From contig CAMNWZ010000006.1 in NCBI GenBank assembly GCA_946566645.1, forward strand, positions 1 through 32,139: 32,139 bases of DNA, written 5' to 3'. Numbering within the stretch: the first letter of the stretch is position 1; the number at the start of each line of letters is the position of its first letter. Below are positions 24,323-31,146 of this stretch, piece after piece. This DNA is from an uncultured Clostridia bacterium (GTDB lineage Bacteria; Bacillota; Clostridia; Oscillospirales; JAAYOS01). The notes under the pieces were generated by a model, which was not told the origin of the DNA, did not search any database, and saw only the letters and a program-made list of their open reading frames with translations. Position numbers and translations under genes: made by a program.

Positions 24323-24826
24323 TTATTCCGATTCGCCGACCCCCGCCGCGCGCCACGCCTCCACCAGCCGTATGAGCGAATAGGACGCGTTCGCGGGACT
24401 GGTCGACGGCAGCGCCGCCGCCTCGATGCCGACCTCCCGCTCGAGGTGCGCGCGATAGAGCCTGTGCGCCGTGCCGCCGTTGGTGAACACACGCGTTATG
24501 CTCGTCTTTGCGACCAGCGACTTCACGTCGTTCGGCAGCGCGTTCTTTATCGAACTGTCGTCCGAGCCGACGATGTCGCAACTCGCGATGACGTCCCACA
24601 GCGCGATGCCGTGAGACAGCAGGAACGCCCGCTTCTCCTCCACGGTGGAGGGAACGTCCCCGCCGAACAGTGCCGCGAGCACCCGCCAGAATCTGTTCTG
24701 CGGGTTGCCGTAGTAGAAGCTCACCTCGCGCGATTTGACCGATGGGAAACTCCCGAGTATCAGCACCCGCGAGTTATCGTCGAACACCGGTGGGAACGGG
24801 TGGGTGATGTGTTGGTGCTGGGTCAT
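24323..24826 (-). CDS. DNA-deoxyinosine / uracil-DNA glycosylase family protein
   Basis: HPFPPVFDDNSRVLILGSFPSVKSREVSFYYGNPQNRFW ... LPSTSPANASYS, the pattern of the HDG/MUG-type UDG superfamily. Confidence 0.85.
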   Translation of the reverse strand: MTQHQHITHPFPPVFDDNSRVLILGSFPSVKSREVSFYYGNPQNRFWRVLAALFGGDVPSTVEEKRAFLLSHGIALWDVIASCDIVGSDDSSIKNALPNDVKSLVAKTSITRVFTNGGTAHRLYRAHLEREVGIEAAALPSTSPANASYSLIRLVEAWRAAGVGESE

Positions 24827-25004: not shown

Positions 25005-25160
25005 TCAAACACTCACCTTAATTCTTTCTACAAAAGTGTCTTTGATTTTTTTGTTTAAATCTCGCATGTTTTTAAATTGTGTCACATCTATAGCGCCAAC
25101 CACTTCGCCATGAATTCTCTCGGGTAAATCTGTTGAAACAAATATAGCGTACTCATTCAA
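25005..25160 (-). CDS. Small hypothetical protein, last ORF of the R-M operon (probable TTG start)
   Basis: 51 aa MNEYAIFVSTDLPERIHGEVVGAIDVTQFKNMRDLNKKIKDTFVERIKVSV. TTG start overlaps the stop of the upstream ORF. The track calls a longer ATG form, 25005-25211. Confidence 0.5.
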   Translation of the reverse strand: MNEYAIFVSTDLPERIHGEVVGAIDVTQFKNMRDLNKKIKDTFVERIKVSV

Positions 25161-26052
25161 CAGCCTTCTTTCTTCTTGCCGTTTTCTTGGGCTTGTCCTT
25201 AACATCAGCATCCTCTGACTTAATTAGCTGTATTATTGCAAGAAGATCAATATAATTGTAATCCTCGTCGTCATCTTCGCTTTTCAATTTGATTACGGAA
25301 GGAGTAGTGTATTGACTATTGTGGACTTCATTGTCCGAATCGGCATTTGAAGCATTCCCCAGCTCTTGAAAAAAATCAAATGAATTTTTCAGCCCACTTA
25401 TCTTTGTTTTACCCTTATAGATTCCGATTAAAGAAACATTCCCTATAAACAAATCGTCCACATTATAAAGATTTTCAAATTCATTTTCAAAGGTAAGTGG
25501 GATTTTTATCAATACTTTTTCATTACTGTCCTTGATTTCGCCTTGCAGCTTATAGGAATAATCCTTAAACATCGAATTAAATAGATTATTAACATCAAGT
25601 CCGCCAGCTTCTGGTAAGCGCATACCCTTGAAAGAACCATTTGAAAATATTTTGACTGTTCTTAATTCCATTTCATTTTCCAAAGAAAGAGAAACATTAT
25701 CAATTCTGACAAGTTGTCCTTCCGTAAGACAACTAAAGTCCACAATGGTTTTGCATTTATCCATTACTTCACTCAATATAAGTGATTTAGTCATAGTTAC
25801 TTTGAAGTTTTCAAGAACCTTTTGAGAATCGGTTGATCCAGATTTAACATCTGCGCCAACCTCCGCATTAAATAATTTCAGAAACTTTGTACCCATTTTC
25901 GCCTGCAAATCCGCATTAAGAGTATCACCTTGATCCGTTTCAACGCTTTCATCTGTCTTAATGACATTACTTAACATCATTTTTATTTCATATACCTTCG
26001 AGAAGTTTAAATAATAAACATTAAACAGCAAATTTGTTATCCCCACAATCAC
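25153..26052 (-). CDS. Uncharacterised protein encoded with the restriction-modification genes
   Basis: 299 aa, GTG start, VYYLNFSKVYEIKMMLSNVI... EGQLVRIDNVSLSLENEMELR. Starts 3 nt after the endonuclease stop; lysine/arginine-rich C-terminus. Confidence 0.75.
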   Translation of the reverse strand: MIVGITNLLFNVYYLNFSKVYEIKMMLSNVIKTDESVETDQGDTLNADLQAKMGTKFLKLFNAEVGADVKSGSTDSQKVLENFKVTMTKSLILSEVMDKCKTIVDFSCLTEGQLVRIDNVSLSLENEMELRTVKIFSNGSFKGMRLPEAGGLDVNNLFNSMFKDYSYKLQGEIKDSNEKVLIKIPLTFENEFENLYNVDDLFIGNVSLIGIYKGKTKISGLKNSFDFFQELGNASNADSDNEVHNSQYTTPSVIKLKSEDDDEDYNYIDLLAIIQLIKSEDADVKDKPKKTARRKKAVE

Positions 26053-26055
26053 ATA

Positions 26056-26871
26056 TTATTTTTTAGTAAATCCCTTATAACTGCCAAAACCGAGCATATA
26101 AGCAGCCATTGCGATTGCCAAATCTTCCGATTCAATATTCTGTTCACTCGCCATAGCTCTCAGCTCATCAATAACAGTATCATGCGGAACAATTGTACCT
26201 TCCAGTTCTTTGACTACCTTTTCGATAACAGACGGCAGTATCATACACATTTGATAAAAAGCATCTTCTTGCCCTGTTACTAAAGCATAAAATTGGTCAA
26301 GGCTTACTCTTCGAATAAGCTTATGGCCAACCTTTTTCTTATCAACGGTTGTTTCCCATTTGATATTTTGAGAACGCTGTGCAATCGCTTCTACCAAAAA
26401 GCAAGCACAATCGTCATCGTTTAACAACTGATTCTGCATTTTAATAAAGGTTTTACCAGCCGAAGCAGAGTTCATTGTGTTATGCTTGTTTTTCATTTCA
26501 ACATAAACGGTATGTACAATTCCGGCTTCAGGAATAGGGATGCCATCAGGATTCTCATAAATCACATCCCAACCACCTTCTTCACCATTTGGTGGAACAT
26601 GACAGTTTTTAATATACTGGAAAATTCGCTGATGGAAGTATCCAATATCGTTATTATTAGACTTATCTCTTTGGCGGAAGATTTCGTTGCTTACAATTTC
26701 TTCCCAAGATGATTGATATACGGTCTTGTCAAAGATCAACTTAATTGGATCAATGATATTTTTATTGAAGCGCTTTAAATCGAATGATTCCAGCTTTTCT
26801 CCATATTTTTCAATTGTCGCTTTGACATGATTTGTAAAATCTTCCTCTGAAATAAAAGTTAAATTCCACAT
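26056..26871 (-). CDS. Type II restriction endonuclease, Eco47II family (predicted GGNCC-type)
   Basis: MWNLTFISEEDFTNHVKATIEKYGEKLESFDLKRFNKNIIDPIKLIFDKTVY... VEMKNKHNTMNSASAGKTFIKMQNQLL. Adjacent to the cytosine methyltransferase. Confidence 0.88.
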   Translation of the reverse strand: MWNLTFISEEDFTNHVKATIEKYGEKLESFDLKRFNKNIIDPIKLIFDKTVYQSSWEEIVSNEIFRQRDKSNNNDIGYFHQRIFQYIKNCHVPPNGEEGGWDVIYENPDGIPIPEAGIVHTVYVEMKNKHNTMNSASAGKTFIKMQNQLLNDDDCACFLVEAIAQRSQNIKWETTVDKKKVGHKLIRRVSLDQFYALVTGQEDAFYQMCMILPSVIEKVVKELEGTIVPHDTVIDELRAMASEQNIESEDLAIAMAAYMLGFGSYKGFTKK

Positions 26872-26872
26872 T

Positions 26873-28102
26873 TTATAGTTCCTCCAACGCTTCTTTTATT
26901 TTTATCGCAATGTCATATGCTAAATTTACAGGAACAGCATTTCCAACCTGCTTATACTGTTGTCCAATGCTCCCACAAAATTGCCAATCATCAGGAAAGC
27001 TCTGGCATCGTGCGTTTTCTCTAATTGTAAACGGACGAGGCTCCAATGGGTGGCAACGATCAGTTTGCTTTTGACTTGGAGAAGTCAGAACGGTAAGTGA
27101 TGGTTCATCTAAACTCAATCGTCTTAAAATTCCAGTTCTGCCACCTTCCATATGCCAACAGCTTTTCATATATTCTTTTGCAATGTCTTCGGGAATATCT
27201 CGCCAGTATCCTCCGGGAGGAACAAGCTCAAATATTTTTCGTTTATATTCAGAGTAGGAAGCACCTTCACTTTTCGGACAGTCAAGCAAAACATCTCGGA
27301 GAACTGGTTTATACTTATGGGGAGCAGGAAATTCAAAAAACATTCTATCTTTCAAATCATTGCGAATGCCTATCGTAATAAGTCGTTCCCGCTTTTGTGC
27401 AACCCCATAATCCCAAGCATTTAGTACCTTTTTTTGAATAGTGTATCCCGTACTCTCAAAAATGTCTGTAATCGTTTTATAGGTGCGTCCTTTGTCGTGT
27501 GTAAGCAACCCTCTCACATTCTCAAATAAAAACATTTTGGGCTGTAATTGCTCTAAAAATTTAGCGTAATGATAAAAAAGAGTTCCACGAGCATCCTCTA
27601 ATCCTAGCCGTTTTCCTGCATAAGAAAAACTTTGACACGGAGCACCACCGGAGAGCAAATCGAGCTCACCCTCAGCAAGACCAAAATATTCCTTCAAATC
27701 CAGACAAGAAATATTAGCTATATCATCATTAATAACACGCCAATTTGGACGATTACATTTCAGCGTGTCAGAAGCGTCTTTATCAAATTCAATGAGCCCT
27801 AAAGTCTCAAATCCGGCTTTTTCAATGCCAAGCGCCAATCCGCCTGCACCAGCAAACAATTCTATCGTTGTGAAAGTTTTAGGAATAGTTTCTTCGTGCT
27901 GGTCTTGGGTGATCTCAATAATATCTCCAATATTGCATTGCAATGCAGCACATATTTTTTCAATGCTTTCAAATGAAATCGTCTCATTCTTGCCCATTCG
28001 AGCCATCACATTGAAACTAATGCCCGCTGCTTCTTTAAGCTCTGTTTTATTCATATTTCTATCTATAAGAAGTTTCCACAAGTTATTATAGCAAACAGCC
28101 AC
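26873..28102 (-). CDS. DNA (cytosine-5) methyltransferase with N-terminal XRE-type HTH
   Basis: FTTIELFAGAGGLALGIEKAGF (motif I), LLSGGAPCQSFSYAGKR (IV), FLFENVRGLL (VI), FTIRENARCQSFPDDW (IX), GNAVPVNLAYDI (X). HTH in residues 1-66. GTG start, RBS ggaggt. Confidence 0.96.
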   Translation of the reverse strand: MAVCYNNLWKLLIDRNMNKTELKEAAGISFNVMARMGKNETISFESIEKICAALQCNIGDIIEITQDQHEETIPKTFTTIELFAGAGGLALGIEKAGFETLGLIEFDKDASDTLKCNRPNWRVINDDIANISCLDLKEYFGLAEGELDLLSGGAPCQSFSYAGKRLGLEDARGTLFYHYAKFLEQLQPKMFLFENVRGLLTHDKGRTYKTITDIFESTGYTIQKKVLNAWDYGVAQKRERLITIGIRNDLKDRMFFEFPAPHKYKPVLRDVLLDCPKSEGASYSEYKRKIFELVPPGGYWRDIPEDIAKEYMKSCWHMEGGRTGILRRLSLDEPSLTVLTSPSQKQTDRCHPLEPRPFTIRENARCQSFPDDWQFCGSIGQQYKQVGNAVPVNLAYDIAIKIKEALEEL

Positions 28103-28153: not shown

Positions 28154-28182
28154 ATAATACCATATTTTCGCCGAATAATCAA
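28154..28182 (-). promoter_or_regulatory. Predicted promoter of the R-M operon
   Basis: Minus strand TTGATT (28182-28177), 17 bp spacer, TATTAT (28159-28154) with TGG extended -10. Confidence 0.65.
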
Positions 28183-28297: not shown

Positions 28298-28334
28298 TAA
28301 AAATGGCGGATAAGGAGTTATCCCTATCCGCCAT
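28298..28334 (-). terminator. Terminator downstream of the tnpV-like gene
   Basis: Minus strand ATGGCGGATAgggataactccTTATCCGCCATttttac: perfect 10-bp stem, then a T tract. Confidence 0.8.
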
Positions 28335-28361: not shown

Positions 28362-28739
28362 TTATTTTATTATGATTTCTTCATTTACAATCTCCATCGC
28401 CCTGCTACGAATGTTGTTCATCCTGCAAACCCATTCCATCTGATTTTCCGCTTTTAGCTGTTCGGTCACGCCCTCACGATTTGCTATCTGTTCTATTAGC
28501 CGAAGAAACATATCTTCCGCCTGCTTGTCAATATCCGCAAGATAACTGTTCAGCTTACCGCTTGTGAGCAGATTGGTGTAAAGCACCTTGCGGTGCTGTT
28601 TGAGATAGTGCAAATGCCGCTGTCCCCACACTCCAATGGGCTTGTTTTCTTTTTCGGCGGGTAAGGACAGACAGGGGAGATTATACTCTCCTTGCCGTAC
28701 ATAAGTGCCGCCCATTTCTTCAAAAATCGTCTTTGCCAT
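28362..28739 (-). CDS. TnpV-like transposon-encoded protein
   Basis: 125 aa, MAKTIFEEMGGTYVRQGEYNLPCLSLPAEKENKPIGVWGQRHLHYLKQHRKVLYTNLLTSGKLNSYLADID, characteristic of TnpV in clostridial mobilizable elements. Confidence 0.85.
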   Translation of the reverse strand: MAKTIFEEMGGTYVRQGEYNLPCLSLPAEKENKPIGVWGQRHLHYLKQHRKVLYTNLLTSGKLNSYLADIDKQAEDMFLRLIEQIANREGVTEQLKAENQMEWVCRMNNIRSRAMEIVNEEIIIK

Positions 28740-28763: not shown

Positions 28764-29924
28764 TTATCTTGAGCGTGCATGATCACGCTTTTGACCCTTG
28801 AGATTTCTCGCCTGTTCAAGCAGGCTGTCTATCTGTTTGTGTCCGAACACTCTGCGGAGCAGTGAATAGTCTTTGTTTTCAGCCCTCAGTCTTGTGTTTT
28901 CTTCGGTAAGCTTACCGTTGATTTTTGAGAGCTTCTCGTTTTCCCGATACAGATTTGCGTTTGTGATATTCAGCCTGTTATAGCTGTCTATCGCCTTGAA
29001 ATACCGTGCGAATAAGGTTTTTATCAGCGATTTCAATTTGGCTATAAGCGGCTCAACAAACTTTGCCTTATAGCTTCTTGCCGACATCATTGCAGTCGGC
29101 TCAGGGAGCTGATACTCAGGCTCGTTCATGATACTTTCATCCAGCTTCTTCAACGCTCTTTCGCCGTTATCAAAATTTTCGATACGGTCAGCCATCACAC
29201 GGAACTCATCTTTTTTCTCGGCGAGTTTATCTTCAAGAGCGTTGATTTCCTTCTCCCGTTCCTGCTTTTTGTAGTCCAAAACGGACAGATGTTTTTCGTG
29301 CGTACCCTTGTGTTCCCACTCGATTCCGTGGCGTTCCATCACGGCGGCAAGCTGTTCTTTTTCGGATTGTACCCATTGATTCCACTCGGTATCGCCACGG
29401 CTTCCGCCCTTGAATCCCTGCGCCGCAAGTGCCTGTTTCAGCGATACACGGGTATCAAGTCCACGCTTGCTGCCGGTGGTGAAGGGAACAAAATCAATGT
29501 GCAGATGCGGCGTTGCCTCGTCCATATGCAGATGTGCTGAGAACACTTTTAACCGAGGATTGCGATCCTGAAATCCACGATAGTATTCATCCAGCAGCTC
29601 CCTTGCAAGCGTCCCATTTTCGCTTTCAGCACTCATATTTTCCTTATCGCCTATCTGCAAAATCAATTCGTGAAACGGTTTTTCCTGCTTGGAACTGCGG
29701 ATTTTTTCATAGTAGTTTTCTATTTTTCTATCGGCTCTCGTCTGCTTGTCATTGTATCTTTTAAGTGCCTCATCAAACAATCGGTGATACACTTCCTTGA
29801 TGTTCTCATTGCAGTAATCTATATTAAGATGAGTTCGGCTCGGATCTACATTTTCAGCTTTAAATTTACGGCTGTTGTGATTTACAGAGCCTTTCCCGAC
29901 CATTGCGCTTATTGTTCTTTTCAT
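28764..29924 (-). CDS. MobV-family relaxase (Mob/Pre plasmid recombination protein, TnpZ-like)
   Basis: AHLHMDEATPHLHIDFVPF HxDExTPHxH motif; coiled-coil C-terminus. RBS ggaggtgta. Confidence 0.93.
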   Translation of the reverse strand: MKRTISAMVGKGSVNHNSRKFKAENVDPSRTHLNIDYCNENIKEVYHRLFDEALKRYNDKQTRADRKIENYYEKIRSSKQEKPFHELILQIGDKENMSAESENGTLARELLDEYYRGFQDRNPRLKVFSAHLHMDEATPHLHIDFVPFTTGSKRGLDTRVSLKQALAAQGFKGGSRGDTEWNQWVQSEKEQLAAVMERHGIEWEHKGTHEKHLSVLDYKKQEREKEINALEDKLAEKKDEFRVMADRIENFDNGERALKKLDESIMNEPEYQLPEPTAMMSARSYKAKFVEPLIAKLKSLIKTLFARYFKAIDSYNRLNITNANLYRENEKLSKINGKLTEENTRLRAENKDYSLLRRVFGHKQIDSLLEQARNLKGQKRDHARSR

Positions 29925-30183: not shown

Positions 30184-31146
30184 TCACTCTGTTTTTTCGG
30201 GAAGCCGCCAGTACCACTGACTGCCCTCTTTAACCGATTGGACATTCAGTGCTTTCTTTGCTTCGTCCAGCACACGCTTTGAAATTCCCATCGCCTGTGC
30301 TTTTCTCAGCAACGCTTGCTGCGGGTATTTGTCCTTTGAAAGATACTCAAGAATTAAATTTTCTGCCTGTTCTGATTTCTTTTCCTTTGGAATACCGCTG
30401 AGTAAATCATCAACCGAGATATCGTAATGACCAAGCCAGCTGAATCCGTTTTCCTTATCCAGTTCGAAGGCAATCGCTTCACCTTCGGGTGCAAGGGAAG
30501 ACTTATCCTGTACCATCACTCGCACCTGCGGATTGTCTTTAATTCTCCCGACAATCAGAACGCTTCTTGCCGAAGCCTGAAAGTCAATCGAACCAAGTCC
30601 ACGGTAAGAGGATTTATTCCCGTTTCCTTTATTCATATGACCGACAAGCAAAATGGCACAGTCATATTTTTCTGCGATTCGTCCCAGCTGCGCCATCACA
30701 TTGCGGACTTCATTGGCATTGTTCATATTGATATTCGCACCGACATAGGCTTGTATCGGGTCAAGTATCATTACTCTTGCACCGACCTCTATAATTGCTT
30801 TTTCTATTCGCTCGTCCAGCATACCGAGTGCGGCTTCCGATTCGTCTATCACTTTGATTTGCGTACAGTCCGCCTCAGCGGATTCCAATCTCGGCTTGAT
30901 GGTATCTTCCAGTCCGTCCTCGGCAGTTTGATAGATAATTTTTACAGGCTCACGCTCAGTATTGTCATAGGGCAGCGCCTCTCCTTTCGAGAGAAGCGCC
31001 GCAAGTCTTAAAGCCAAAGTTGTTTTGCCCTCGCCGGGATCGCCCTGAATGATTGTGATTTTCCCGTATGGGATATATGGATACCAAAGCCAATTCACTT
31101 CCTTGCTTTGGACTTCATCCATACTGATGATTTTAAGTTCAGCCAT
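30184..31146 (-). CDS. RepA-like AAA (RecA-fold) ATPase/helicase
   Basis: Walker A IIQGDPGEGKTTLALRLAALLSKG, VMILDPIQAYVG, CAILLVGHMNKG, SSYRGLGSIDFQASARSVLIV. Confidence 0.88.
   Translation of the reverse strand: MAELKIISMDEVQSKEVNWLWYPYIPYGKITIIQGDPGEGKTTLALRLAALLSKGEALPYDNTEREPVKIIYQTAEDGLEDTIKPRLESAEADCTQIKVIDESEAALGMLDERIEKAIIEVGARVMILDPIQAYVGANINMNNANEVRNVMAQLGRIAEKYDCAILLVGHMNKGNGNKSSYRGLGSIDFQASARSVLIVGRIKDNPQVRVMVQDKSSLAPEGEAIAFELDKENGFSWLGHYDISVDDLLSGIPKEKKSEQAENLILEYLSKDKYPQQALLRKAQAMGISKRVLDEAKKALNVQSVKEGSQWYWRLPEKTE

Follow-up and report, generated by a model that had tools for sequence, protein, structure and literature searches.

A Dodola-related gene pair, truncated by a deletion, at the tail of an Eco47II-family restriction-modification operon in a Clostridia bacterium

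Organization of the operon

What do two further open reading frames contribute behind the methylase and endonuclease of a type II restriction-modification (R-M) system? The question is raised by a 32,139-nucleotide stretch of an uncultured Clostridia bacterium (hereafter the window), where the original prediction placed a four-gene operon with an apparently shared promoter: an XRE-fused 5mC methyltransferase (M), an Eco47II-family endonuclease (R) and two unknown genes of 299 and 51 amino acids. Profile searches bear out the first two assignments. M matches PF00145 (6.3e-82), TIGR00675 (8.8e-78) and, in its helix-turn-helix part, PF13443 (6.8e-19), while R belongs to PF09553 (Table 1). The pairing of a C5 methylase with an adjoining Eco47II-family endonuclease is that of known type II Eco47II systems, which are likewise found on mobile replicons or elements; the window system differs from these in the HTH carried by M itself and in a defence tail of two genes. 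M, R and the intact 299-codon gene (A) all lie on the minus strand with spacings of 1-3 nucleotides (1 between M and R), and this part of the predicted operon stands; the 51-aa open reading frame, as shown below, does not stand as a gene.

A terminator-like hairpin sets the operon apart from the gene upstream. One promoter common to the operon's genes is plausible; yet promoter-like sites do not outnumber those in shuffled sequence (12 versus 13.4), and this holds for the weak candidate upstream of M. Judging from their families, the R-M proteins would cleave incoming unmodified DNA, and the HTH on M would probably autoregulate the operon.

Table 1. Features of the operon and of the element that carries it (positions in the window)
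Feature	Positions	Strand	Evidence
Right end of the element, where identity with locus L002 stops	24842	.	Alignment; GC shift from about 0.35 to 0.60
51-aa ORF, TTG start: residual C-terminal tail of PDC-M37B	25005-25160	-	PADLOC; L002 alignment
Junction of the 1,021-bp deletion (L002 8911-9931 missing), 1-nt microhomology	25142-25143	-	Alignment to L002
First 14 nt of the deleted B gene, ATG at 25156 overlapping the stop of A	25143-25156	-	L002 8897-8910
A: PDC-M37A/DolA-like protein, intact	25153-26052	-	PADLOC PDC-M37A, 3e-112
R: Eco47II-family restriction endonuclease, 271 aa	26056-26871	-	PF09553, 1.6e-90
M: XRE-type HTH_26 fused to C5 cytosine methyltransferase, 409 aa, GTG start	26873-28102	-	Pfam, NCBIfam
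Weak candidate promoter upstream of M, TTGATT-17-TATTAT, TG before the -10	28154-28182	-	Not above chance
Terminator-like hairpin between tnpV and the operon	28303-28334	-	14-bp stem and T tract
TnpV, mobile-element marker	28362-28739	-	PF14198, 1.4e-48
MobV-type relaxase	28764-29924	-	Mob_Pre, PF01076, 1.7e-21
RepA-like AAA ATPase of the element	30184-31146	-	AAA_25, PF13481, 1.8e-28
Tyrosine integrase, cut by the contig end	31600-32139	-	PF00589, 3.7e-18

The 51-aa open reading frame and the loss of gene B

The 51-aa frame, predicted as an unknown gene, hits the PDC-M37B model (390 positions) only at its C-terminal end, positions 338-384 (4e-8). A near-identical element, with a single mismatch over 4,418 bp spanning M, R and A, is borne by locus L002 (UBA7067), and there A is followed by a full-length gene, B, of 390 amino acids, which overlaps A by 4 nucleotides. 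The 51-aa frame aligns with the L002 B protein at 1.1e-23. Relative to L002, the window lacks 1,021 bp and retains the first 14 and the last 138 nucleotides of B, out of frame with each other; B's original ATG now yields a frameshifted peptide of 22 residues. Nearly all ATPase motifs are removed, only the sensor-2 end of B being left, and the window genome has no other B-family gene, its remaining matches being larger Clp-like proteins. The PDC-M37 pair is incomplete in the window, where A is present and an adjacent full-length B is missing; L002 has both.

From these alignments we infer that the 51-aa frame is debris of B and no independent gene, and the second of the two extra genes originally proposed becomes the remnant of a deleted AAA+ partner of A. 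A genuine small gene, coding for a toxin, an antitoxin or a regulator, could be imagined from the open frame and the TTG start overlapping A's stop, but it is hardly credible given that 45 of the 51 residues are shared with the C-terminal end of L002's AAA+ protein and that the N-terminal stub of B is out of frame. In annotation, this 'gene' should not count as a new defence protein.

The deletion is seen in one fragmented assembly (159 contigs) and is possibly a minority variant or a misassembly, the real operon then having an intact A-B pair. We consider this unlikely: the homology at the junction is merely 1 nucleotide and the L002 element has a private deletion as well, both of which speak for an artefact, but the junction shows no repeat that could explain a misjoin. 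A 9-bp repeat suspected at this position was absent once the two sequences were aligned. The private deletion of L002, of about 1,230 bp relative to the window, lies between the RepA-like ATPase and MobV genes (L002 4493-4494).

The proteins A and B

The PADLOC model PDC-M37A covers residues 9-280 of A, and PDC-M37B matches the L002 B protein at 6e-152; as in other PDC-M37 loci, the two genes are adjacent and their order is kept. The window differs in that B is cut to its last 45 residues and in that the module forms the tail of an R-M operon. From the starts of its homologues, the true start of A is likely the TTG at 26031, giving a protein of about 292 amino acids. No Pfam or NCBIfam model matches A. 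Its homologues occupy 42 loci in Clostridia and Bacteroidota, plus a few Bacilli plasmids, and are absent from the phage and viral collections searched. A sequence search for relatives of solved structure found none; AlphaFold models A only poorly (pLDDT 61), and a PDB search with that model gave no significant match. Low-probability OB-fold matches recur for A and are a lead only. Two fusions were observed in Flavobacterium: an A-B fusion protein (L016, 8004-10028) and an A protein joined to an unclassified N-terminal region (L024, 6600-8864). A PIN domain guessed by eye in the latter has no match in Pfam.

B is better defined. Besides PDC-M37B, the L002 protein matches AAA_2 (1.3e-22) and DolB (2.2e-29), its nearest solved relatives are ClpC and ClpB, and its predicted structure has a pLDDT of 85. 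Among 29 B homologues, the Walker A and Walker B motifs, sensor 1, the arginine finger, the sensor-2 arginine and a GYxG pore loop are all invariant or nearly so, and a simple pattern search found no conserved ClpP-docking loop. A and B adjoin in almost all homologues. Clostridial relatives share 71-81% protein identity with the window and L002, as high as or above their DNA identity (72-78%), which is the pattern expected under purifying selection.

Is PDC-M37 a form of Dodola? The gene order is alike, B and DolB are homologous in both search directions, and both families can be embedded with R-M genes. The A side differs: A has no DolA match at a threshold of 0.1, the Pfam domain DUF6414 is absent from the 38 M37A members scanned, and a direct hhalign comparison of M37A with six DUF6414 proteins yielded nothing of use; in the window, moreover, the DolB-like gene is deleted. 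A and DolA, which miss each other directly, are linked through a bridging protein, a DolA protein of G129, which matches DolA (3.5e-83) and PDC-M37A (5e-6) collinearly over the same residues. On these profile comparisons, PDC-M37 is a separate branch related to Dodola. A survey of the Bacillus cereus group reported one overlap between PADLOC Dodola and PDC-M37 calls (PMC11811056). Dodola protects against phages by itself in B. subtilis and S. thermophilus (PMC11514479, PMC12322248); PMC12322248 lists its mechanism as unknown. DUF6414 proteins unaccompanied by DolB were seen beside a YhcG nuclease (L077) or close to a type III Mod/Res pair (L080).

A probable integrative mobilizable element

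The operon block is AT-rich (GC about 0.34-0.41, against 0.60 for the chromosome, with an edge near 24.85 kb). Ahead of it come tnpV and the genes of a MobV relaxase, a RepA-like ATPase and a tyrosine integrase, and it is probably cargo of an integrative mobilizable element. Integrase and relaxase are both found; the contig stops inside the integrase, and the left end of the element is not in view.

In L002, the element is located at the 3' end of guaA (GAGTGGGAATGA; L002 780-960 and 10180-10420), a known integration site (PMC5704250). The element of the window abuts a look-alike core (GAGTGAGAATGA) just before a DNA-deoxyinosine-glycosylase-like gene (24323-24826), and the guaA of this genome is on a different contig; here the element probably occupies a secondary attachment site. 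Downstream of guaA, M37AB or Dodola loci were likewise seen in L007, L011 and L084, and this region is possibly a defence-island hotspot.

A discrete cassette behind diverse restriction genes

Across nine clostridial loci, DNA similarity of 70-89% is confined essentially to the segment between the start of A and a point just short of the stop of B, and the flanks mostly differ, so that on comparison of these sequences the A-B pair is a discrete cassette. This cassette follows, at 3-62 nucleotides, five unrelated type II R-M modules: Eco47II in the window and L002, a C5+N6 methylase fusion with the endonuclease PDLC03488 in L003, XamI in L004, AlwI with two putative D12-like methylases (recognized by eye) in L005, and BsuBI/PstI in L006. 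A small HTH protein in L003, L004 and L006 resembles the HTH part of the window's M. Elsewhere the pair lies between hsdM and hsdS (L020), or behind hsdS (L031), EcoRI_methylase with GmrSD_N/HNH (L076), a YhcG nuclease (L035) or a PDC-S06/PrrC-like ATPase (L027). In front of a true Dodola locus (L083) is an N6/N4 methylase (PF01555) similar to type III Mod; behind the locus comes a Res-like protein, recognized by eye, whose 101-aa fragment has no Pfam match.

Do the homologues then occur mostly without R-M genes, as would be expected of a pair unrelated to restriction? Most have no methylase or R-M gene within 3.5 kb. Methylase motifs are nonetheless enriched close to the pair, in 10 of 105 large ORFs versus none of 140 farther off (p = 1.6e-4, or 9.7e-4 once collapsed to eight loci), a count over related M37 loci with a near zone picked by the analyst. 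The tightly linked upstream gene is usually of a restriction or other nuclease type; non-R-M genes occur too. A type II R-M system downstream of one Dodola locus is mentioned in one paper, and we found no description of a recurrent association of R-M systems with the Dodola family in the literature searched, a scope outside which most subscription journals fall. It is this recurrent association, rather than the damaged copy of the window, that we regard as new.

Possible roles of the A-B pair

The original prediction had offered a second defence layer among the functions of the extra genes, and this fits the placing of the 299-aa gene in a Dodola-related family of two-gene anti-phage candidates. 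We think it probable that R-M and a separate Dodola-like module are stacked in one operon, the second layer being broken here. The mobilizable element would carry the type II R-M genes, then PDC-M37A and PDC-M37B as the last genes of the operon. Intact B would form a ClpB-like AAA+ ring threading protein past the tyrosine of its pore loop, with A acting as its adaptor or sensor, and together they would add a further phage-defence layer, for which the family relation is established and the mechanism is our proposal. The anti-phage activity would be carried over by analogy from Dodola, whose A protein is distant. In the window genome, a recent frameshifting deletion would have removed B; the Dodola-like module is predicted to be inactive in this copy, and only R-M should protect, A standing alone. 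The tight coupling to nuclease genes exceeds what a free-standing second layer needs, and counts against this reading.

Alternatively, A-B might monitor its R-M system and be released or activated when a phage blocks restriction. The position behind five unrelated type II modules, the loci with hsdM and hsdS or with EcoRI_methylase and GmrSD_N/HNH, and the type III-like methylase beside Dodola all favour such a guard, for which PrrC in the EcoprrI type IC operon is a precedent (PMC3874165). We find it doubtful even so, in view of the majority of homologues without R-M genes nearby, the non-R-M genes among the close neighbours and the protection given by Dodola alone. An adaptor-unfoldase pair might instead dismantle the nuclease on self DNA, easing the entry of R-M operons into new hosts, much as ClpXP acts in restriction alleviation (PMC3874165). 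B resembles Clp proteins and has its pore loop intact, the varied upstream partners are mostly nuclease genes, and the context is mobile. We judge this improbable: the lack of a conserved ClpP-docking loop in the simple pattern search would require unfolding without degradation, Dodola stops phages unaided, and the R-M system of the window apparently persists without B. PrrC and ClpXP are both precedents for a coupling to restriction (PMC3874165). With EcoprrI the window operon shares, as a functional analogy only, a second defence gene within an R-M operon; it differs in having no anticodon nuclease.

A broader view, which we put forward tentatively, is that Dodola and PDC-M37 belong to a single superfamily of restriction-coupled AAA+ modules, mobile A-B cassettes that enter type I, II and III R-M or other nuclease operons and guard or regulate the nuclease there. 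With the same reserve, R-M modules may swap in front of a conserved A-B tail. Dodola relatives inside or behind R-M operons are in any case a clue that restriction enzymes may be partners or targets of the ATPase pair, and the window and L002, with near-identical operons lacking and containing B, offer a natural comparison.

Eco47II R-M systems are also found without an A-B tail, as in L. iners and B. thetaiotaomicron. In Lactococcus (L089, 4297-5063), two other small hypothetical genes come after the Eco47II system, and these are perhaps another R-M tail.
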